A DNA stretch of 64,000 nucleotides, taken from the NCBI RefSeq assembly GCF_000317515.1, contig NC_019738.1:347501-411500 (forward strand), in the 5' to 3' direction. The notes beneath the pieces were generated by a model, which searched no databases, was not told the origin of the DNA, and saw only the letters and a list, made by a program, of their open reading frames with translations. The translations under genes were made by a program, and so were the position numbers. Source of the stretch: Allocoleopsis franciscana PCC 7113. GTDB taxonomy: Bacteria > Cyanobacteriota > Cyanobacteriia > Cyanobacteriales > Coleofasciculaceae. Positions 31,487-46,273 of the stretch are shown here, one piece after another. Numbering within the stretch: the stretch's first letter is position 1; each line of letters begins with the position of its first letter.

Positions 31487-34078
31487 ATGACCTTTCCAAA
31501 TTGGGTGACTTGGCTAAAAGAACGAACAGCTTTCGGTATTCTTTCCGAGGACGTGATCAATGCGCTCGCGCAAGTGATGGAAGAGCGCGTAGTGCCCGGT
31601 AACACGCGCTTGGTGATTGAAGACACACCCGTTGAATATCTCTACATTCTCCAACAAGGGCGTATTGAGAGTGACCGAGCTAACCAAACGAGTTCTGCTT
31701 GGGCTATAAGTTGGCTCCCAGGAGCCATTATTCATTTACAAGAATTACTATTTGACCAATCCGCTCAAAGAACCGTCAAAACCCTCAGCGAATGTCACCT
31801 GTGGGTAATCCCTGCCCAACAATTTCAAGAATTACTCAGCCAATATCCCGAAATTGCTCAAGCTTTTTCGCCCCAACTTGCTGCTGAACTCGCTAAACTG
31901 TCTTCTCAACTCAGTTACGAGCAAGAGCGTCAGGCTATTTTAAGGCCTTATTTAGTGAGTAGGGCAAAACGGGGAATTATCGGTAAAAGCCGCTATGCTG
32001 TGCGATTGCGGCAACAAATTAAAAAAGCAGGGGAAGACCGCCAATCCGCACTTGTTTTCGGCGAACCTGGACTAGAAAAAGATAATATAGCCACTCTAAT
32101 TCACTTTGGTTCCGCATACCGACGCGAACCTATTATTAAAGTCGATTGCAGCACTGTACAGGCAAGTGGTGCAGAATTGTTTGGTCGTGCGGGTGGGAAA
32201 CCAGGATTAATTGAAGCCCTCGGACAAGGCACATTAATTCTCAACAATATTCAAGAATTACCCTCAGAATTAATGCCAACTCTGGCTAATTTGTTAGAAA
32301 CCGGCAGCTACACACCCGTTGAAAGAGAACAGGGCAACAACAGGGAAGAACCCAATCCAAAATCTAAAATCCAAAATCCCAAATTGCAATGTCAGGCTCA
32401 TATTGTCATGATTTCTGAAAAAGCCCAGCCAGACATTGAACATCGGGTGAGTCATTTAATCAAAGTTCCACCCCTGCGGGTACGGAAAGTGGATATTAGC
32501 GACCAGATGGATTACTACATTAGCCTCTGGTGTCGGTCGAAAGGGAGTTCTAAACCCCGTGTCACACCAGAAGCCCTGCGTCGATTACAGGCGTATGATT
32601 TTCCGGGCAACTTGAGGGAATTGCAAAACCTCCTAGAGCGAGCACTCGTACAATTAGGCACTGCCAAAGAACTCACTGAAGAAATTGTCTGGCCTTCTCA
32701 GAGTAAGAAGAAACAATTTCGATTGAATCTATTAAATGCTTATCCTAGATTGAGGCGATTTTTAAGAGGTGAGTGGTGGCCCGATCGCATTAATTACGGA
32801 TTTACCTTATGGTTTTTTGCCCTAATCGTGACATTGGGATTCGTCGGCCCCCAAAATCGTCAAGAAAATTTTACGTTAAATCTCTTTTGGGCGTGGTGGT
32901 GGCCTTTAATTTTGGTGGGCTTTCCCTTTGTCGGACGCCTTTGGTGTGCAGTTTGCCCCTTCATGATTTATGGAGAAATAACACAGAAACTTTCCCTGTG
33001 GCTATGGCCTCGTCAGTTGAAGCGTTGGCCTAGAGAAGCGGCTGAAAAATGGGGAGGCTGGTTTTTATTTGGCTTATTTGTCCTCATATTTTTGTGGGAA
33101 GAACTTTGGAATTTAGAAAATACCGCTTACCTATCGGCTTGTTTGCTTCTGTTAATTACGGCTGGAGCAATGATTTTTTCTGCCATATTTGAACGTCGAT
33201 TTTGGTGCCGTTATTTATGTCCTATTGGGGGGATGAATGGTTTATTTGCTAAGTTATCGATGACGGAATTAAGGGCGCAACAAGGGACTTGTTCGGCGGA
33301 ATGTACGACTTACCAATGTTACAAAGGCGGCTCCCAAAAAGGTGAAGGGTTGGAAACGGCAGGTTGCCCGTTATATTCTCACCCAGCTCAATTGGAAGAT
33401 AACCGGGACTGTGTGTTGTGTATGACTTGCCTCAAAGCCTGTCCTCATCGCTCCGTTGAGGTCAATTTGCGCCCTCCAGGAATTGAGCTTTGGACAACTC
33501 ATAATCCCCGTACTTATGAGGTAGCGCTACTCTTATTGTTGCTCGGTGGGATATTTCTGCATCGATTACCGGAAATACAGGCAGAATTAGGATTGTCCCT
33601 AAATTTACAGGATTTTTGGCAACATTTTGGCTTATCGCTTTTTGTGTTAGCCATTCCCGCCACGATCCCTTTAATTGCCTATGGGGGGAAACAGTTATTT
33701 TATCGGCTTATTCAAGCTCTAAAATTCCCAATTCCTAATCCCAAACCTAAACCCTTTGTAGAGCTAGCCTATGGATACTTACCCTTAGTCCTGGCTGGTA
33801 ACTTAGCTCACTATTTGCGCTTAGGTTTAAGTGAAGGTGGGCGGCTGTTGCCCGTGACGTTGGCGACTTTTGGTCTGAGTGGTGAAGGGTTGCCTGTGTT
33901 TGTGGCTCATCCGGCTGTGATCGCCTTTTTACAGGGGGTGACGCTGATGGTTGGTGTGGTTTTGACAATATTTCTGACACAAAAAATTGCTTGTCAGCCT
34001 GTGCGATCGCTCTTAGCGCAACATTTCGCATCTGTTATTCTCTGTATCTGTCTTTGGGTCATTATCGTCGGTTATTAA
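31487..34078 (+). CDS. Cyclic-nucleotide-binding / sigma54-type AAA (degenerate) / membrane polyferredoxin fusion
   Basis: 863 residues in three parts. ~10-135: a Crp-type cNMP-binding domain (VVPGNTRLVIEDTPVEYLYI, LYILQQGR). ~160-400: the central AAA domain of sigma54 activators, still clear from VPPLRVRKVDI and YDFPGNLRELQNLLERALVQ, but Walker A is broken (FGEPGLEKDN), the Walker B pair is Asn-Asn (GTLILNNIQELP) and GAFTGA is replaced (ELFGRAGGKPG). ~430-860: an NapH/CcoG-like membrane part with CAVCPF, CRYLCPIGG, a cysteine group (CSAECTTYQC) and a ferredoxin cluster (CVLCMTCLKACPHRS), plus about eight helices. Residues ~284-301 are an in-frame heptamer repeat. GGAGG lies 8 bases before the ATG. 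Likely a membrane redox protein regulated by a second messenger. Confidence 0.85.
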   Translation: MTFPNWVTWLKERTAFGILSEDVINALAQVMEERVVPGNTRLVIEDTPVEYLYILQQGRIESDRANQTSSAWAISWLPGAIIHLQELLFDQSAQRTVKTLSECHLWVIPAQQFQELLSQYPEIAQAFSPQLAAELAKLSSQLSYEQERQAILRPYLVSRAKRGIIGKSRYAVRLRQQIKKAGEDRQSALVFGEPGLEKDNIATLIHFGSAYRREPIIKVDCSTVQASGAELFGRAGGKPGLIEALGQGTLILNNIQELPSELMPTLANLLETGSYTPVEREQGNNREEPNPKSKIQNPKLQCQAHIVMISEKAQPDIEHRVSHLIKVPPLRVRKVDISDQMDYYISLWCRSKGSSKPRVTPEALRRLQAYDFPGNLRELQNLLERALVQLGTAKELTEEIVWPSQSKKKQFRLNLLNAYPRLRRFLRGEWWPDRINYGFTLWFFALIVTLGFVGPQNRQENFTLNLFWAWWWPLILVGFPFVGRLWCAVCPFMIYGEITQKLSLWLWPRQLKRWPREAAEKWGGWFLFGLFVLIFLWEELWNLENTAYLSACLLLLITAGAMIFSAIFERRFWCRYLCPIGGMNGLFAKLSMTELRAQQGTCSAECTTYQCYKGGSQKGEGLETAGCPLYSHPAQLEDNRDCVLCMTCLKACPHRSVEVNLRPPGIELWTTHNPRTYEVALLLLLLGGIFLHRLPEIQAELGLSLNLQDFWQHFGLSLFVLAIPATIPLIAYGGKQLFYRLIQALKFPIPNPKPKPFVELAYGYLPLVLAGNLAHYLRLGLSEGGRLLPVTLATFGLSGEGLPVFVAHPAVIAFLQGVTLMVGVVLTIFLTQKIACQPVRSLLAQHFASVILCICLWVIIVGY
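32351..32384. repeat. Heptamer repeat (CCAAAAT/CTAAAAT) inside the fusion gene
   Basis: CCAAAATCTAAAAT then CCAAAATCCCAAAT, read in frame as NPKSKIQNPK. The same style of repeat, in the same reading frame, occurs in recJ at 39971-40002 (TQNPKSKI). Confidence 0.8.
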
Positions 34079-34083
34079 GTGAT

Positions 34084-34172
34084 GAAAAAAACCCTCAGCA
34101 GGTTGCTGAGGGCGGTCATCAGGGTGCATCTATATTTGTTAATCCAGCATGGCTCTCACCGTATCCGGAAAA
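34084..34172 (-). ncRNA. Three-copy element, copy A: candidate small RNA ending in a terminator
   Basis: Read on the minus strand: TCCGGA, then GGATTAA, then TAGATGCACCCTGATGACCG, then hairpin CCCTCAGC-AACCT-GCTGAGGG and seven T. The same order of blocks occurs at 37904-37994 and 38698-38786. Copy A lies 3' of the Ser/Thr kinase gene on its strand, ~210 bases beyond the stop, and directly beyond the end of the convergent polyferredoxin gene. It is either a conserved 3' end or an independent small RNA. The A-run on the plus strand shows that termination is on the minus strand. Confidence 0.55.
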
Positions 34173-34273
34173 TCGCAGATTTTCTTTCAGCGCTACATCT
34201 ATCTTGAAAATTGCTCATCGGTAATATTAATTCGACTGGCACCGAAATTAGCGAAAAATGGGGTACAGAAACT

Positions 34274-34316
34274 CTGCGCCCCTCTGCGCGATCCTTTGCG
34301 CTCTCTGCGTTAAAAA
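34274..34316. repeat. Dispersed CTCTGCG-rich intergenic repeat
   Basis: CTCTGCGCCCCTCTGCGCG, then ATCCTTTGCGCTCTCTGCGTT and an A-run. Opposite-orientation relative of the repeat at 25140-25205. It occupies most of the gap between copy A and the kinase gene. Confidence 0.6.
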
Positions 34317-34381
34317 AATCTACTATTTCAATGCCAACAAACTCACTATAATGGGTCTTATTCAACATTAAAATCTGCTCA

Positions 34382-35941
34382 TTAGTTTTCTTTTGATGAT
34401 GCACTCTTTTTGGCATCTGCTTTATTGGGTTTAGGGCAAGTTTTTTTAGTACGATTCTTATAAACCCAACCTTGCACCGGAGAGCTAATCTCTATATAAC
34501 CATTTTCTTCTTTTCCAGTGACAGTGAGTTGGATTCCTGATTTGATAACTTCCCCGGTTTTTTTACTTCTGGGTGACTCCCGGACATTGGATGCCCTTCT
34601 CATCGTGAAAGTACAACCATTTGGGTCTTGGGCTTTCTCTGGTTCAGGTTTTGGGTCAGATTGATTGGGTGTAGATGTTGAATTCGATTTGTTGGGTTCA
34701 GGTGTTGAATTCGATTTATTAGGGTCAGGTATGGCGTTTGTTTTATTCGTCGTTGTCACCGCAGAGGGTGATGGTGGACGAACCATCGAAAAAATACCGG
34801 CGGCAATGACAAGAGTCACAGCACTTGTTCCCAGGATTAGGGGCAATTTGCTAGGGATTGTAGAAAAAGAACCCACACCCATGGGCGATCGCGAAGGTTG
34901 GACGGGTGGAACCGTCGCCGTTTCCTCCATTAAATTACTTGATGGGAGGGCAGCTTGACCTGAGGGTAAAGACTTGAGTGTGGCGATCGCCTGTCGCGTC
35001 TTAAGCGCCGATATATTCTGGATTGTTTGCAGCACCTTAGAGGCAGACTGATAGCCATCTCTGAGGTAGTAACGCACTCTCTGGCTAGCGATCGCCGCAA
35101 AAGCCTTTGCCGCGTTGGGATTGGCGAGTGGCTCAAGTGCTTGCAATGCCTCAGTTGCTGACTGGTAGCGGTATTTAAAATAGTGGCGTACCATCTTAGC
35201 CAGAACCGCCGCCAACGCATCGCTGACTTGGGCATATTGCTGCCAGATGATTTCCCCCGTATCGGGGTCTTCTCCAAATTGGGTGGGATTCATGCCAGTT
35301 AAGGCTTGGATACCAATCATGCCCAGAGCATAAAGATCACTACTAGTACGAGGTCTACCTTGTCCCTGTTCGCTAGGCATGTAACCTGGAGTACCAATGG
35401 CAACCGTCTCTTTGACCAGTTCTTGGGCAACGATCGATTGCATCTGCACTTGCTTAACGGCACCAAAGTCCACTAAAACGACCTTGTTATCGTGCTTGCG
35501 ACGGATTAAATTCTCCGGTTTGAGGTCGCGATGGATCACACCGTTCGTGTGGACAAAATCGAGGATATATAAGACTTCTTGCAGCAGTTGAATGACCTGG
35601 CTTTCACTCCACGGCTGACTCGGTTCTAGTTCCACATTGAGCGGATGTCCGTCAATAAATTCTTCGACGAGGTAAAACTCTTGGTTTTCTTCAAAGTAAG
35701 CTAACAGTCGGGGAATCTGGTCATGATTGCCCAGCTTTTCCAGAGTTTCGGCTTCGCGAGTAAAGAGGCGTCTAGCGATTTGCAAAAATTCGGGATCGCG
35801 AGAAGCGGGTTTGAGATGTTTGACCACACAAGTGGGATTGCCCGGTCGGCGAGTGTCTTCGGCGATGTAAGTATGACCAAATCCGCCTTGGCCTAGAACT
35901 CGAACCACCTGGTAACGCTGGTCTAGTAATGCGCCTATCAT
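34382..35941 (-). CDS. Membrane Ser/Thr protein kinase with SH3-like domain
   Basis: 519 residues from ATG at 35941, which gives MIGALLDQRYQVVRVLGQGG, the usual start of cyanobacterial Pkn2-type kinases; the frame runs on to 36085 but that leader is unlike the family. Kinase features: GQGGFGHTYIAED (glycine loop), CVVKHLKP (ATP lysine), VIHRDLKPENLI (catalytic loop), LVDFGAVKQV (metal site) and GTPGYMPSEQ. One membrane helix (LPLILGTSAVTLVIAAGIF) precedes a Pro/Asn/Ser-rich linker with repeated PNKSNST units, then a bacterial SH3 domain (RRASNVRESPRSKKTGEVI ... GWVYKNRT) that would face the periplasm, where SH3b domains often bind peptidoglycan. The kinase side is cytoplasmic. Confidence 0.92.
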   Translation of the reverse strand: MIGALLDQRYQVVRVLGQGGFGHTYIAEDTRRPGNPTCVVKHLKPASRDPEFLQIARRLFTREAETLEKLGNHDQIPRLLAYFEENQEFYLVEEFIDGHPLNVELEPSQPWSESQVIQLLQEVLYILDFVHTNGVIHRDLKPENLIRRKHDNKVVLVDFGAVKQVQMQSIVAQELVKETVAIGTPGYMPSEQGQGRPRTSSDLYALGMIGIQALTGMNPTQFGEDPDTGEIIWQQYAQVSDALAAVLAKMVRHYFKYRYQSATEALQALEPLANPNAAKAFAAIASQRVRYYLRDGYQSASKVLQTIQNISALKTRQAIATLKSLPSGQAALPSSNLMEETATVPPVQPSRSPMGVGSFSTIPSKLPLILGTSAVTLVIAAGIFSMVRPPSPSAVTTTNKTNAIPDPNKSNSTPEPNKSNSTSTPNQSDPKPEPEKAQDPNGCTFTMRRASNVRESPRSKKTGEVIKSGIQLTVTGKEENGYIEISSPVQGWVYKNRTKKTCPKPNKADAKKSASSKEN

Positions 35942-36275
35942 GGTATTGCCCGCTCCCCCGCAGTAAACCGTTAGCCTAATAGACTTTTCGAGCCAGAAAC
36001 CGTGTTTCCGGATTTTTGTAAAGATATGTGTGGATGAACATCGGGTGTGCAGCAGATCGACATCCGCGCAGGTTTTAACACTCAAATGATTCCCTGATTA
36101 GACCAACCTTGACCTGTAGATTGACAGGGGAGCAATTACCCTTTCCGGGTGGTGTCCCTTGGGCAATCAGGGCAATGCCATAACCTTGTGGCGAGGTGAG
36201 GTTTGACCCCACGAGAAGCCCCTTGCCTAGTGAATTTTTGGCAGACCTTGTTCGCTTCATAAAGGTATCAGAATC

Positions 36276-37883
36276 ATGGCTGAACTTAAACTTCGTCTAA
36301 AACGGGGAAATACGGAAAAAACAATTTCGGTGAATCGAGAAGAATTTACCATCGGTCGATTGCCCGAATGCAACTTAAACTTGCCTTTCGAGGGAATTTC
36401 TCGATACCATGCCCGCTTATTAAAAACAGCCTCCGGGGTATGGACAATTGAGGATATGGGGAGTAAAAATGGGACGCTCATGAATAAACGCCCCGTGATT
36501 TCGCCGGAAAAGATTAAGGACGGCGATGTTATTTGGCTGGGAGATATTAGCCTTGCGGTTATTTTGGTCGAGCCGCCTCAAGCGAATGCAAGACAGGTAG
36601 AATCCTCGGAAAAAGGAGCTACTATTCTTCACAATGTCCAAGAACTGCAACAGCATTGGATACAAGCGAATGCTGACCGTGATGATATCAGTAACAAAGA
36701 CAAAACGATTGCCCGTCTCAAAGATTTGGTGGAGATAGCGAAGAGTCTGAGTGCGGCTGAATCGATAGAAGCAATATTCTTCCAGGTGCAGGAAGTCGTC
36801 TTTCGTTACCTCAAGAGTATCGAGCGATTAGCATTATTAATTGATGTGAGTGGTGCAGGGGAACTTGAATTGCTCAATGCAGCAACTCGAAATGTTTTCC
36901 AACAAGAAAATTTGTCTCCTGATGGCAGTTGGATTAGCCAAACCATCTGTCAAAAAGCATTTACAGAAAAAGTAGCCATTCAAACAGCGGATGCCCAAGT
37001 CGATCAACGGTTTGAGGGGCAACAGAGTATTTTACTCAAAAACATTGGTAGCGCCATGGCTGTTCCTCTGTGGGATGAAAATAAGGTTGTCGGTGTGCTG
37101 TATGCCGATGCCCATTTTTCTTCAATGCAGTGGGCCAAAGAGGGAGAGGAAGACCTCAGCTTTTTTTCCACTTTAGCCAACCTCGTAGCCTCTAGTGTGC
37201 AACGTTGGCTCTTGCAACAAAAGCTTAGAAGTGAAGAAATGATTCGGCAACGATTAGAGCGATATCACTCTCCCGCCGTCGTACAACAGTTGATCTCAGT
37301 AGGCGCATTACCAGACGGTCGGTTATCTCCCCAAGAGAGTGAAATCAGCATTCTGTTTGCAGATATTGTTGGCTTTACAGCACTTTCAGAACGGTTAAGA
37401 CCCGCAGAAATTGCCCACTTACTCAATGGTTTTTTCGAGGAAATGTTGCAAGAAGTTTTTGCTATGGGCGGGACTTTGGATAAGTATATTGGAGATTGCA
37501 TCATGGCATTTTTTGGTGCTCCGGAACCTCAAAAAGACCATGCCGACCGGGCTGTTGCCGCCGCCCAAGGAATGCTGACTCGTTTAGAGAATTTGAATGC
37601 CAATCAAGTCTTGCGCGAACCTCTGCAATTACGCATTGCAATTAATAGTGGAAAGGCCGTGGTTGGCGATGTCGGCAGTTCTCAACGGGTAGACTATACA
37701 GCGTTAGGAGCCACGATTAATCTAGCTTCCCGCATGGAAGGCATCTGTCCTCCTGGTGAATGCGTCTTGAGTGAAGCAACTTATCAAATGCTGGCGCAAA
37801 AGCAGGGTTTTGAGGAGATGGGAGAACACCGTTTCAAGGGAATTGACCGACCCATACCGGTTTATCAGACGAAGAGGCGTTGA
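36276..37883 (+). CDS. FHA-GAF-class III adenylate cyclase
   Basis: 535 residues. FHA domain ~22-95 (FTIGRLPECNL, ISRYHARL, DMGSKNGTLMN) binds phosphothreonine; a GAF domain covers ~150-305; a class III cyclase domain ~355-535. Both metal-binding aspartates are present (LFADIVGFTALSERL and YIGDCIMAFFG); the purine-selecting Lys (TLDKYIGD) and Asp (RVDYTALGATINLASR) favour ATP, so cAMP is the expected product. No membrane helix. The divergent Ser/Thr kinase could supply the phosphothreonine ligand, and a cNMP-binding redox protein lies 2.2 kb away; both links are inferred from position. Element B follows the stop by ~20 bases. Confidence 0.92.
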   Translation: MAELKLRLKRGNTEKTISVNREEFTIGRLPECNLNLPFEGISRYHARLLKTASGVWTIEDMGSKNGTLMNKRPVISPEKIKDGDVIWLGDISLAVILVEPPQANARQVESSEKGATILHNVQELQQHWIQANADRDDISNKDKTIARLKDLVEIAKSLSAAESIEAIFFQVQEVVFRYLKSIERLALLIDVSGAGELELLNAATRNVFQQENLSPDGSWISQTICQKAFTEKVAIQTADAQVDQRFEGQQSILLKNIGSAMAVPLWDENKVVGVLYADAHFSSMQWAKEGEEDLSFFSTLANLVASSVQRWLLQQKLRSEEMIRQRLERYHSPAVVQQLISVGALPDGRLSPQESEISILFADIVGFTALSERLRPAEIAHLLNGFFEEMLQEVFAMGGTLDKYIGDCIMAFFGAPEPQKDHADRAVAAAQGMLTRLENLNANQVLREPLQLRIAINSGKAVVGDVGSSQRVDYTALGATINLASRMEGICPPGECVLSEATYQMLAQKQGFEEMGEHRFKGIDRPIPVYQTKRR

Positions 37884-37903
37884 GACACAGACGGTATCGG
37901 GCA

Positions 37904-37994
37904 AGAAAAAACCCTCAGCGGGGGGCTGAGGGCGGTCATCAGGGTGCATCTACTGTTTTTTAATCCGACATGAATCTGAAAGTATCCGGAAAAA
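37904..37994 (-). ncRNA. Three-copy element, copy B
   Basis: Minus strand: TCCGGA, GGATTAA, AGTAGATGCACCCTGATGAC, then hairpin CCCTCAGC-CCCCC-GCTGAGGG and six T. It lies ~150 bases 3' of the FKBP gene on its strand and meets the end of the cyclase gene from the other side. The hairpin loop differs from copies A and C (CCCCC against AACCT and AACTC), whereas the 20 bases before the hairpin are the same. Confidence 0.55.
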
Positions 37995-38143
37995 TTCAAG
38001 AAATTCCCTCACCCGCTAAAAAGGCCAGGGGGATTAGCCAAAGTCCCTGACGATTAGAAATTGCTGCTACACCAGCGAAGATGTCACATAAAGTTCATAT
38101 ACTCTGCCAATTTTGGCGGATTGAGTGGGTATAGTCTCAGAAT

Positions 38144-38572
38144 TTAGCTGATTTCAACCAACTGAATATCAAAGGTTAGGTTCTCGCCAGCCAGAGGATG
38201 ATTGGCATCTAAGGTTACCTTGCCATTAGAAACCTCTGTAATAAAAACTGGCACAGCTTGTCCATTCGGCTGTTGGACTTGTAATTGCTGACCGACTTCC
38301 GGTTCCAAGTCTGGTGGCAGTTGTTCTCTGTTGACTTGAATCACCATTTCTTCTCGATAAGGACCATAGGCTTGATCCACAGGAATTTTTTGAGTTTTTG
38401 ATTCTCCAGGAGTCATTCCCATCACCGCTTCCTCGAAACCAGGGATGACTTGCCCCTGATTGAGTGTGAATTCTAACGGTTCACGGTTAACGGAGGAATC
38501 AAACACTGTGCCATCGTCTAGTTTGCCCGTATAGTGAATTTTGACGGTGTCACCCGATTTTGCTTGTACCAT
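38144..38572 (-). CDS. FKBP-type peptidyl-prolyl isomerase, SlyD-like
   Basis: 142 residues. FKBP core: VKIHYTGKLDDGTVFDSS (residues ~10-27), EFTLNQGQVIPGFEEAVMGM and PGESKTQKIPVDQAYGPY. The middle part (VIQVNREQLPPDLEPEVGQQ) is the insert-in-flap chaperone domain of SlyD, and the protein ends with DANHPLAGENLTFDIQLVEI. It lacks the Cys/His-rich metal tail of E. coli SlyD. A cytoplasmic folding helper. Copy C of the repeated element lies ~125 bases upstream of its start and copy B beyond its 3' end. Confidence 0.93.
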   Translation of the reverse strand: MVQAKSGDTVKIHYTGKLDDGTVFDSSVNREPLEFTLNQGQVIPGFEEAVMGMTPGESKTQKIPVDQAYGPYREEMVIQVNREQLPPDLEPEVGQQLQVQQPNGQAVPVFITEVSNGKVTLDANHPLAGENLTFDIQLVEIS

Positions 38573-38697
38573 TTTTACTGTCCTTTGGACATGATCAACT
38601 CCTCTAGAGTAACAACTAGAGGTATCAGCGGAATACTATCGGCTTGGTTGAGGGTGCAATCGCCTCGGCTAATGTGTTGTGTGCGATCGCTTTCCAA

Positions 38698-38786
38698 GAA
38701 AAAACCCTCAGCGAGTTGCTGAGGGCGGTCATCAGGGTGCATCTACTGCTTAATCCCATATCCTGCTCACGGCGTCCGGATAAATT
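38698..38786 (-). ncRNA. Three-copy element, copy C
   Basis: Minus strand: TCCGGA, GGATTAA, AGTAGATGCACCCTGATGAC, hairpin CCCTCAGC-AACTC-GCTGAGGG and six T. It lies 54 bases 3' of the small gene ending at 38840 and ~125 bases before the FKBP start. Here the flanking genes run in the same direction, so it is not simply a divider of convergent genes. Confidence 0.55.
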
Positions 38787-38839: not shown

Positions 38840-39028
38840 TCACTGAATTCGGCTTTCCACCTTCTCAATCAAAGCCTCAGCCATCTCAACCGCCAAAAGA
38901 ATCAGAGTTCGCTCTCGCTGCCCTTGAATGCTTTCATCACTGACCTTGGGATAAATATGTGGATTAGATATCATCGCCGCCAGTAGTTGTGTCGCCATCT
39001 GTTTTACTTCAGAACGGTTTGAATCCAT
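38840..39028 (-). CDS. Small conserved-looking hypothetical protein
   Basis: 62 residues from ATG at 39028, chosen because GAGGAG lies 6 bases upstream; the frame is open to 39151 but the extension is unlike a protein N-terminus. The protein is helical and polar (EVKQMATQLLAAMISNPHIY, then RTLILLAVEMAEALIEKVES). No family recognised. The recJ gene is divergent from it with ~130 bases between starts. Confidence 0.6.
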   Translation of the reverse strand: MDSNRSEVKQMATQLLAAMISNPHIYPKVSDESIQGQRERTLILLAVEMAEALIEKVESRIQ

Positions 39029-39156
39029 CGTCTTCTCCTCGGCTTGCCTATTCGCAAGTTCGTTCAAAAAATACATAGAATACAGAAATTGTAGGGAAAT
39101 ATCCTGTCCTGCGTTAGTGCCGCAGACTCTTAGGCTCATCGCCACTGACAAATCTC

Positions 39157-42724: not shown

Positions 42725-45700
42725 TCATGAATGGTCGGTATCCACTTTGAAAACTCCTACCGAAGATTGAAGTTCTTGGGCAACAGCTACGGTTTGCTGC
42801 AAAGAGCGCGAAATTTGATGGGAAGATTCAGAGGTTCGCTCAGAAACCCTAGCAATCTTCTGCATTAAGTTGGTAACCGCTAAAGAGGTTTGCGCTTGAG
42901 ATACGGTTGCACTCGAAATCGATTGCACTAACTCATCAATCTGATGAGATACCTCTAAAATCTGACCGAGGCTATCCTTGGTTTCTTCCACCAAATAAGT
43001 GCCTTCTACAACCTGAGAAGTCCCCAATTCCATCGCCTCAACTACTTCATTGGTTTCTCGTTGGATGGTTTCTACAATGTGTTCAATTTCTTGAGTGGCA
43101 GCCGTTGAACGCTCAGCCAATTCACTGATTTCCTCTGCAACGGCTGTAAAGCTTTGGGCATCCTCATTTTCTCGTGCCGTTTGAATTCCAGCATTCAGCG
43201 CTAGCATGTTAGTTGCTTGAGCAATCTGTTGAATCAAGTAAACGGCTTTGGAAATTTCCTGAGAGGATTGACCTAAACGCTTCACTTTTTTGGAGGTTTC
43301 TCCCACCGTGGCTCGCAATTTTAAAATTCCTTGCACCGTGCGCTCCATCGCTTGTCCACCCGCTTGGGCAGTAGTAGAGGCAGAGCGAGCAACGGCGGCG
43401 GCGCGGTGGGCACTCTCGGCAACCGCTTGAATGGAAAGCGTCATTTGCTCGACGGAACCCAGGGTACGGGTAATTTCTTCTGCCTGTGTAAGAGCTTGAT
43501 CAGACAGTTGACGGATGGCTCCTTCGTTTTCCCCTAAGGATACGTTGACTTGCACCGCTGCTTGTTTCACCTGAGTCACAATGCCGCGCAGACTGGCAAT
43601 GATGGAATTGAAAAAGTCTGCAACGGTGCCAATTTCCCCTTCTTTCACCTCCGCGAGAACGGTGAGATCGCCCTTAGCGGCTCCTTTGACTTCGTTGAGC
43701 AGTTCTGCCAATTGACGCTGGAGTGCTTCTTTTTGCTGGCGTTGCTCTTGAAAACTCGCTTGAGCTTCCTGACGCGCTTGCTCTCTCTGTTCCAAAAGGG
43801 TAGCTTGCTCGATCGCAATTCCTACCTGTGTCGCCACCTGTGCCAACCAATTAATTTCTTCCTCTTGCCAATCTCGTGGCTTGGCACATTGATGGGCAAT
43901 CAGTAAACCGAGCAACTCATCCCGAATCAGAATCGGGGCGACTAAATTCGCCTTAACTTCAAAGCGTTCGAGTAACTTAATATGACACTTGGTTAAATTG
44001 GCCTGATAGATGTCATTAATCGCACGAACGCGACCTTTGCGGTAGAGTCCGCCATGATTTCCCTTAAAACAAGTGTCCTCTACCTCCGCCCCTAGGGCAA
44101 TTGTCCAATTCGAGTCCACGGATTCAGCAATCATGGTGCCACTCCAGTCGGAATCGAAACGGTAGATTAACACTCGGTCGGCTTTTAAGGCTTGTTTCAC
44201 CTGTCGCACCGTGGTGCTGAAGATATCTTCCAAGTTAAGCGATCGCAAAATTTGCTTGGTCATTTCAGCAAAGGCACGGGCGCGTTTGGCTTCGGCTTCT
44301 TTTTGTTGACGCTGCTCAAGAGCTGCCATCTCCGCCGCTTCTGCTAGTAATCGAGCGCGTTCGGCTTCGGCTTCTTTCTGTTTTCGCAAGGTTTCCTGCT
44401 GTTTAAGTAGCATCGCTTGGTCTAAAGCTACCCCTACCTGGTTCGCCACTTGCTTGAAGAAATCAATTTCGATTTCTTTCCACGTCCTGGGAGCAGAACA
44501 TTGATGGGCAATCAGCAAGCCATGAAGCTGTCGGTCAACAATAATCGGCACAATCAGGTTGGCTTTGACCGATAAGGTTTCCAGTTGCCTTAAGTGACAA
44601 TCGCTTAAATCAGCTTTGGAAATATCCTCGTTGGCTTTGACTCGACCTTTCTCATAAAGAATCACATAGCGATTCTCAAAACAAGGGTTAGCCATTTGCA
44701 ATCCCAAGGCACTAGGCCAACCCCGCGCCACAGATTCGGCAACAACCATGCCGTGCCCTTCCGACTCGAAGCGATAAACCACCACGCGATCGGCTTGTAG
44801 GGCGGCGCGAGTCTCCACCACGGCGGTGTTGAAAATATAATCCGTATCCAGGGATTCCCGAATATTGGAGGTGATGTCATTCAACAACCGTGCCCGTTCA
44901 GCTTCCGCTTCTTGCTGTTTGCGGAGAGTTTCTTCCTTTTTAAGGAGGATTTCTTGGTTCAGGGCAAAGCCCATCTGGGTGGCGACTTGTTTTAAGAAAT
45001 CAATTTCGGTTTCCTTCCAGGTTCGAGAGCCAGAACACTGGTGGGTAATCAATAAACCATGAAGTTGTCGGTCTGCAATGATTGGTACGACTAAGTTCGC
45101 TTTGACGGAAAAGGTTTCCAGTTGTCGGATATGACAATCGGTTAAACCAGCGTTGTAAATATCGTTAGTCGCTCGAATCCGGCCTTTCTGGTAAGGAATG
45201 ACGTATCGATCTTTAAAACAGGTGTCATTAATTTGAGCACCGAGAGAAGGAGGCCAACCCCGACCCACGGATTCGGCAATCATCGTACCATTCCAGTCTG
45301 GATTGAAGCGATAGACAATAACGCGATCGGCTTTCAGGGCGGCGCGGACTTCTGCTACCACCGTGGTGAACATGTCTTGGGTGTCGAAGGCTTCTCGAAT
45401 GCTGGAGGAAATGGAATTCAAGAGTAGTTCTTGCTTCACCTCAGCCGCTTGTTGGCTAAATTGAAGCTGAAGCTGGTCTGCCAGTTGGTTAATATGAGTG
45501 CTTAAGGTGGATAATTCGTCTTCTCCTTGGACTTTTAGGTAAGTATTGAGTTCTCCCCGACCCAATTTTTCTACGGCGTTGGTGGCTGCACTGATTTCAC
45601 GCGAGGCGCGGTGGGAGAGGAAAGCGGCGATCGCACCGACTAATAAGACGGTTCCCCCTGTTCCCAGCATCAGAGTCAGCAACAGTTGTGCCTTCAGCTC

Positions 45701-46273
45701 TGACATCGTGGTGGTGGGGCTTTGACCGGTTTGGGCAACCTGTGTGGTAATCGCTTGATTGGTGAGGTAGTAGCTGGTTGCGCCGATTCCGATCGCGGGG
45801 AGTGTGCCAAATGCGATCGCCAACAGGATGGCTTTTGTACTCAATCGCAATTGCCGCCACCAGGGAGGACTTGATTGCTGAGGAGACTGACTAGAGAGAG
45901 CTATGCTAAATGGCGGGTTCTTCAGCGTACTCGTAAATACTTGGGGCACAGAGAGTTGCCCCAGAGGGGAATGACTCCCCTGACTCGCTATCGGGGGATG
46001 ACTCGGACTGCCTGAAGACTCGTTCTCCAGTTGAACTAACGCCGTGCGAGCTAAGTCAGCCGTTGCCGAATCACCCGCCAGTCTGAGCGCTTCTCGCAAT
46101 TCAGCTCTAGCTTTGTCCAAATCGCCAGCTTCACGAGAGGCGGCACCTAGCCAAATGCGAATTTTCGCATCTTGAGGTTGCTGGGTAGCCAAGTCGGAAA
46201 ACGGTTGTATCGCCGCTTCATACTGTCCTTGCGAATGGGTTTTGGCTAGAGCTTGATCGAGTTGATTTTTCAT
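42725..46273 (-). CDS. Chemoreceptor with TPR, HAMP and three cyanobacteriochrome-like GAF domains
   Basis: 1182 residues. ~15-90: TPR-like (AAIQPFSDLATQQPQDAKIR). Two membrane helices (~145-168 and ~195-218), then HAMP (~220-275). Three GAF domains (~290-440, 470-620, 675-825), separated by helical linkers with repeated QKEAEAERARLL. Each GAF has the phytochrome-type Cys-His pair (TDCHIRQLE, SDCHLRQLE, TKCHIKLLE) and, ~30 residues earlier, DTCF, NPCF or DTCF, like the second cysteine site of DXCF cyanobacteriochromes. ~880-1182: methyl-accepting signalling domain, whose tip reads LNAGIQTARENEDAQSF rather than the usual LNAAIEAARAGE. Candidate phototaxis receptor related to PixJ; bilin binding is inferred. 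No che genes adjoin it. Confidence 0.85.
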   Translation of the reverse strand: MKNQLDQALAKTHSQGQYEAAIQPFSDLATQQPQDAKIRIWLGAASREAGDLDKARAELREALRLAGDSATADLARTALVQLENESSGSPSHPPIASQGSHSPLGQLSVPQVFTSTLKNPPFSIALSSQSPQQSSPPWWRQLRLSTKAILLAIAFGTLPAIGIGATSYYLTNQAITTQVAQTGQSPTTTMSELKAQLLLTLMLGTGGTVLLVGAIAAFLSHRASREISAATNAVEKLGRGELNTYLKVQGEDELSTLSTHINQLADQLQLQFSQQAAEVKQELLLNSISSSIREAFDTQDMFTTVVAEVRAALKADRVIVYRFNPDWNGTMIAESVGRGWPPSLGAQINDTCFKDRYVIPYQKGRIRATNDIYNAGLTDCHIRQLETFSVKANLVVPIIADRQLHGLLITHQCSGSRTWKETEIDFLKQVATQMGFALNQEILLKKEETLRKQQEAEAERARLLNDITSNIRESLDTDYIFNTAVVETRAALQADRVVVYRFESEGHGMVVAESVARGWPSALGLQMANPCFENRYVILYEKGRVKANEDISKADLSDCHLRQLETLSVKANLIVPIIVDRQLHGLLIAHQCSAPRTWKEIEIDFFKQVANQVGVALDQAMLLKQQETLRKQKEAEAERARLLAEAAEMAALEQRQQKEAEAKRARAFAEMTKQILRSLNLEDIFSTTVRQVKQALKADRVLIYRFDSDWSGTMIAESVDSNWTIALGAEVEDTCFKGNHGGLYRKGRVRAINDIYQANLTKCHIKLLERFEVKANLVAPILIRDELLGLLIAHQCAKPRDWQEEEINWLAQVATQVGIAIEQATLLEQREQARQEAQASFQEQRQQKEALQRQLAELLNEVKGAAKGDLTVLAEVKEGEIGTVADFFNSIIASLRGIVTQVKQAAVQVNVSLGENEGAIRQLSDQALTQAEEITRTLGSVEQMTLSIQAVAESAHRAAAVARSASTTAQAGGQAMERTVQGILKLRATVGETSKKVKRLGQSSQEISKAVYLIQQIAQATNMLALNAGIQTARENEDAQSFTAVAEEISELAERSTAATQEIEHIVETIQRETNEVVEAMELGTSQVVEGTYLVEETKDSLGQILEVSHQIDELVQSISSATVSQAQTSLAVTNLMQKIARVSERTSESSHQISRSLQQTVAVAQELQSSVGVFKVDTDHS

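Follow-up and report, generated by a model that had tools for sequence, protein, structure and literature searches.

Identity of the three elements

Three similar elements lie on the minus strand of a 64-kb stretch of cyanobacterial DNA (the whole stretch analysed here, hereafter "the window") at 34084-34172, 37904-37994 and 38698-38786, and they raise the question of whether they merely end the genes in front of them or encode something of their own. A first-pass annotation had taken them for a small RNA family under selection beyond termination, and this guess was right; the family is the known NsiR1, a small regulatory RNA described from nitrogen-fixing heterocysts, and thus neither new nor one of the Yfr families. 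Re-reading the sequence recovered all three copies with the annotated order of TCCGGA, GGATTAA, conserved block, hairpin and T-run, while the length of the block had to be corrected from about 20 to 18 nt (AGATGCACCCTGATGACC, identical in all three). Across the ~92-bp elements, the copies are 78-82% identical in pairwise comparison, with TCCGGA and the block as the fully invariant parts of the alignment. They also have the stem CCCTCAGC/GCTGAGGG in common, followed by the T-run, and their three hairpins top the minus-strand list of a terminator scan, in agreement with the terminators annotated at their ends. As had also been described, a different minus-strand gene lies 5' of each copy, encoding a Ser/Thr kinase, an FKBP and a small protein without Pfam match, respectively. 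On the plus strand, the genes at 31487-34078 and 36276-37883 face copies 1 and 2 with their 3' ends.

The Rfam scan suggested in the first-pass annotation matched the elements to NsiR1 (RF02399) with E-values of 9e-7, 2e-6 and 4e-4 within the 64-kb window, which speaks against chance. Copies 2 and 3 reach the gathering score of this family and copy 1 narrowly misses it (Table 1). We term copy 1 a paralog rather than a formal Rfam member because its DIF1 box and block are identical to those of copies 2 and 3 and conserved in a sister species. Yfr1 and Yfr2 are short cyanobacterial small RNAs with an invariant unpaired motif and in this respect resemble NsiR1, but neither these two nor any other Yfr family had an Rfam match in the whole 64-kb window, and membership in a Yfr family was dropped for this reason. 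Searching the literature for the block sequence as text returned unrelated papers only.

Published NsiR1 is an RNA of ~60 nt, and each copy of its gene has its own DIF1 promoter (TCCGGA at -35) and terminator (PMC9045159, PMC6133370). DIF1 is exact in all three window copies at 36-39 nt 5' of the block, and in heterocystous genomes we directly see the same TCCGGA at the same spacing from a TAGATGCACCCTGAT start. Judged from their sequence, the three elements are dispersed paralogs of NsiR1, an identity that we consider firm, with TCCGGA as the DIF1 box at -35, the invariant block as the predicted 5' end of the RNA and hairpin plus T-run as the predicted terminator. Since every copy of their class (class A, see below) is preceded by a DIF1 promoter, transcription of the window copies separately from the genes around them would be expected.

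Table 1. Coordinates of the NsiR1-type elements and of the genes upstream of them in the window
Feature	Position	Strand	Basis or remark
DIF1 box TCCGGA, copy 1	34164..34169	-	spacing equals Nostoc NsiR1
GGATTAA, presumed extended -10 of copy 1	34139..34145	-	inferred from position relative to DIF1
NsiR1-like sRNA, copy 1	34084..34134	-	34.5 bits, below the gathering score of 39
Invariant 5' block TAGATGCACCCTGATGACC, copy 1, presumed pairing region	34114..34132	-	alignment
Terminator hairpin, copy 1, then T-run	34091..34113	-	terminator scan
DIF1 box TCCGGA, copy 2	37985..37990	-	alignment
NsiR1, copy 2	37904..37955	-	43.6 bits, above the gathering score of 39
Invariant 5' block, copy 2	37934..37952	-	alignment
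Terminator hairpin, copy 2	37911..37933	-	terminator scan
DIF1 box TCCGGA, copy 3	38775..38780	-	alignment; spacer 2-3 nt shorter
NsiR1, copy 3	38697..38748	-	45.1 bits, above the gathering score of 39
Invariant 5' block, copy 3	38727..38745	-	alignment
Terminator hairpin, copy 3	38704..38726	-	terminator scan
Ser/Thr protein kinase gene (PF00069), upstream of copy 1	34382..36085	-	context
FKBP-type isomerase gene (PF00254), upstream of copy 2	38144..38572	-	context
Small gene without Pfam match, upstream of copy 3	38840..39151	-	context

Copies across the genome and two promoter classes

The elements are not confined to the window, which bears on one of the conditions that the first-pass annotation had set for giving up its small RNA reading: there are 23 copies in this genome, and a phylum-wide sample of 386 genomes has copies in 77-80 of them. 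Of the 23 copies, 22 contain TAGATGCACCCTG exactly and the remaining one has TAGATACACCCTG, and each of the 22 occurrences of the 13-mer TAGATGCACCCTG in this 8-Mb genome lies at such an element. Fourteen copies including the three of the window form a class A with TCCGGA (10 copies) or TCCTGA (4 copies) 35-39 nt before the block, and these had not been picked for DIF1; the background of TCCGGA is 13 occurrences in the 64-kb window. Outside box and block, the spacers of class A copies differ and their terminator stems are mostly unrelated. One of them, C1:3132263, is found a few hundred bases from a CRISPR array (CRISPR-DR5 repeats) near C1:3131505.

The other nine copies (class B) have a palindrome, mostly GGGGTGACACCCC, at the place equivalent to DIF1 and a different stem. 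All seven occurrences of exact GGGGTGACACCCC in the genome precede class B copies, and the nine copies of this class all have the GGGN5CCC core by which they were classed. According to published work, HetR recognises GGGN5CCC, and its site at hetP reads GAGGGGTCTAACCCCTC (PMC4192349, PMC4649674). Class B resembles the hetP site in its arms and in the required 5-nt centre (GGGGTGACACCCC or close forms), whereas a GGGN5CCC palindrome is absent at all three window copies. Class B hence looks like an apparently undescribed promoter type that is putatively driven by HetR directly. Its members are located at C1:1364033, 1381447, 2605726, 3011938, 6021967, 6282541 and 6282670, C4:26292 and C5:20371, and their terminators are mostly of the GGGAGAGTC type. 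The copies on C4 and C5 are each followed after 138-150 bp by an XRE-type HTH gene in the same orientation, and these two genes closely resemble each other.

Distribution across the phylum and association with HetR

A HetR gene (PF03574) is encoded in this genome and, by the same profile, in 80 of the 386 sampled genomes. DIF1 plus block, searched as TCCGGA-N(29-36)-AGATGCACCCTG, is present in 77 genomes, every one with HetR, and the scan found this pattern in none of the 306 genomes without HetR; a reversed version of the pattern, run as a control, had zero matches in the 386 genomes. This association counts genomes rather than independent events and partly reflects shared ancestry, since HetR and NsiR1 both track filamentous cyanobacteria. 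Outside the heterocystous family (f6, which includes records matching Desmonostoc, Rivularia and Tolypothrix), the arrangement is found in 35 of the 38 genomes with HetR, making up 35 of the 77 carriers. Among the named carriers are Symploca, Moorena, Okeania, Coleofasciculus, Spirulina, Leptolyngbya, Roseofilum and Limnofasciculus, none of which is known to form heterocysts. The same is, as far as known, true of the host family (f1, Coleofasciculaceae), which has sequence in common with Symploca sp. SIO1C2, Coleofasciculus sp. S288 and Limnofasciculus baicalensis. Chance or contamination seems to account for two matches of the pattern in named records, one in Streptomyces and one in a Clostridiales bin.

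The class B pattern (GGGTGACACCC-N(15-35)-AGATGCACCCTG) was found in 20 of the 386 genomes, which span eight families (f1, f7, f13, f15, f17, f18, f20 and f22) and of which 19 have HetR, and in none of the 42 Nostocaceae genomes sampled. The one exception, G229, has no HetR match by PF03574 yet carries copies of both kinds; in total, it has 12 block-bearing copies, with degenerate versions of the DIF1-like box (TCCCGA, TCCTGA). In a genus without HetR (g23), all seven sampled genomes have one conserved RNA that contains the exact block TAGATGCACCCTGATGA and lacks both DIF1 and a HetR box, and G005 has one block-bearing RNA with neither box. The block is therefore not strictly confined to HetR genomes. 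Our view of weak RF02399 matches in genomes without HetR as pure noise was partly wrong, because g23 and G229 have the exact block behind other promoters; those of g77 and G079 are without the exact 14-mer.

The role of HetR in filamentous cyanobacteria that do not form heterocysts has been called a mystery (PMC11298460), and a multicopy DIF1 small RNA linked to hetF is a concrete and easily measured candidate for its output in such species. We consider it an evenly balanced proposition that NsiR1-type small RNAs are an ancient core output of HetR that predates heterocysts, has been kept in nearly every cyanobacterium with HetR and tunes hetF, with two promoter classes: DIF1, including the window copies, and the apparently undescribed class with a direct HetR palindrome in eight families other than Nostocaceae.

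Linkage to hetF and putative mode of action

The top-scoring copy of this genome (C1:4152690, 65.1 bits, class A) lies upstream of hetF in divergent, antisense orientation. The HetF ortholog encoded there has 849 aa and matches NF045509 (NCBIfam) with an E-value of 3.7e-276 and 918.7 bits, which falls short of the equivalog cut-off of 1200. At ~50 hetF loci from this and further families, with or without heterocysts, the nearest NsiR1 is always upstream and antisense; since these loci had been selected by the presence of NsiR1 and include repeats of one place, the result is the geometry and not a frequency. Antisense position to the hetF 5' region is thus a property of the C1:4152690 copy, while the window copies are located elsewhere. 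A tandem array upstream of hetF is absent from this genome, where a single copy is hetF-linked and all others are dispersed, but such an array is the arrangement of Nostoc and no part of the definition of NsiR1.

It is probable that the window elements are NsiR1 small RNAs of the HetR regulon that use their 5' block to repress mRNAs. Each element would be a complete unit of DIF1 promoter (TCCGGA at -35 and an AT-rich -10), RNA and intrinsic terminator, with a predicted transcript of ~52-60 nt starting just before the invariant UAGAUGCACCCUGAU. The DIF1 promoters would be switched on by HetR, probably through HetZ, and the small RNAs would then accumulate, pair with mRNA leaders via their unpaired 5' block and thereby repress translation. 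Expression of NsiR1 from DIF1 is HetR-dependent in Nostoc, and other DIF1 promoters lean more directly on HetZ (PMC9045159, PMC7377430); by analogy, the window copies should depend on HetR as well. The best candidate target appears to be hetF, and others are conceivable. A further NsiR1 copy is encoded antisense to the hetF leader, which would therefore contain the complement of the block if hetF transcription starts as in Nostoc. Duplexes predicted with this leader have energies of -30 to -61 kcal/mol, and those of the window copies fall between -36 and -39 kcal/mol; as the site arose antisense to NsiR1, such values are to be expected and indicate a possibility rather than independent evidence. 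Work in Nostoc describes repression of hetF at the translational level by the hetF-linked copy, and identical NsiR1 copies there repress alr3234 as well as, in part, hetF (PMC9045159). For the window copies, action in trans on hetF in this organism seems about as likely as not.

The dispersed copies may also have further targets through their divergent spacers. A stronger version of this idea, in which they hit targets other than hetF (e.g., hetP-like mRNAs) or act as RNA sponges and leave hetF to the linked copy, strikes us as possible though somewhat doubtful. It would fit the divergence of spacer and stem among copies and the different targets of sibling copies in Nostoc, where alr3234 is a target of NsiR1.4 (PMC9045159); as the slightly divergent NsiR1.1 and NsiR1.4 differ on alr3234, the block is unlikely to be the sole pairing region. 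However, the part kept in every copy is the block, which is complementary to the hetF leader, and its exact 13-nt complement is found in this genome only opposite NsiR1-type copies.

Comparison with known NsiR1 systems

The window copies resemble Nostoc NsiR1 in their 5' block, DIF1 distance, size of ~60 nt and terminator, and the genomes are alike in having multiple copies of which one lies divergently upstream of hetF. Unlike in Nostoc, the window copies are dispersed between unrelated genes instead of standing in a hetF array, their terminator stem is different, copy 1 falls below the Rfam score, and the host family is not heterocystous as far as we know. The presence of this multicopy RNA in practically all sampled genomes with HetR, together with its linkage to hetF, suggests that a HetR-NsiR1-hetF circuit existed before heterocysts and was later expanded to tandem arrays in Nostocaceae. 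An NsiR1-like RNA had been noted before in a filamentous strain that bears hetR but is not heterocystous: RNA162 of Limnospira indica PCC 8005, a 57-nt RNA from one gene that was named by resemblance; the passages on RNA162 in that report do not concern promoter, copy number, hetF linkage or phylum-wide occurrence with HetR (PMC8400943).

Conservation in a sister species and alternative explanations

A sister species from this genus (G386) has all three window copies at orthologous places, in a region that is mostly ~92% identical. Between the two genomes, we counted no changes in DIF1 (0/18) or block (0/57) compared to 10/93 in the spacer, 5/73 in the stem and, with gaps counted, 387/1339 (29%) in the flanks. 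The absence of changes from box plus block (0/75), the changes in the stem and the mostly different stems of paralogs argue that promoter box and RNA 5' end are under stronger selection than the terminator.

This pattern bears on the view that the elements are locally duplicated intrinsic terminators that merely end the mRNAs of kinase, FKBP and hypothetical gene. It is true that every copy follows a minus-strand gene and has a good terminator at its end, and that the stem common to the three probably arose by local duplication. Yet block and TCCGGA are better kept than the stem, other copies hold box and block with unrelated stems, and intrinsic termination has no role for the block. We rejected a plain terminator repeat because block and DIF1 outlast the stem, and consider this explanation quite improbable.

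Slightly less probable still is a mobile or selfish repeat (MITE- or REP-like) that has spread through the genome, even though 23 dispersed copies, some of them on the small contigs C4, C5 and C7, could give this impression. The first-pass annotation had named identical mobile repeats as an alternative, but the copies are not identical and differ in spacers and stems. What they have in common is promoter box, block and the presence of a terminator, with no common element ends seen, and the arrangement recurs in genomes that all have HetR. This alternative was rejected because the positions are orthologous in the sister species and the common parts are just promoter box and block. The pattern of conservation also led us to reject, as extremely improbable, a tiny leaderless ORF in the block (AUG CAC CCU GAU, M-H-P-D), since, although an AUG stands ~5 nt from the presumed 5' end in all copies except the GAUACA one, conservation covers third codon positions and upstream bases, and the reading past the fourth codon varies among copies.

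Among other genes of the window, the plus-strand gene at 31487-34078, which stops 6 bp from the T-run of copy 1, encodes a fusion protein of cNMP-binding, sigma-54-type AAA+ and Fer4_5 4Fe-4S domains. A minus-strand gene at 42725-46273 encodes a protein of 1182 aa that, judged by sequence alone, resembles a multi-GAF chemoreceptor-type sensor.
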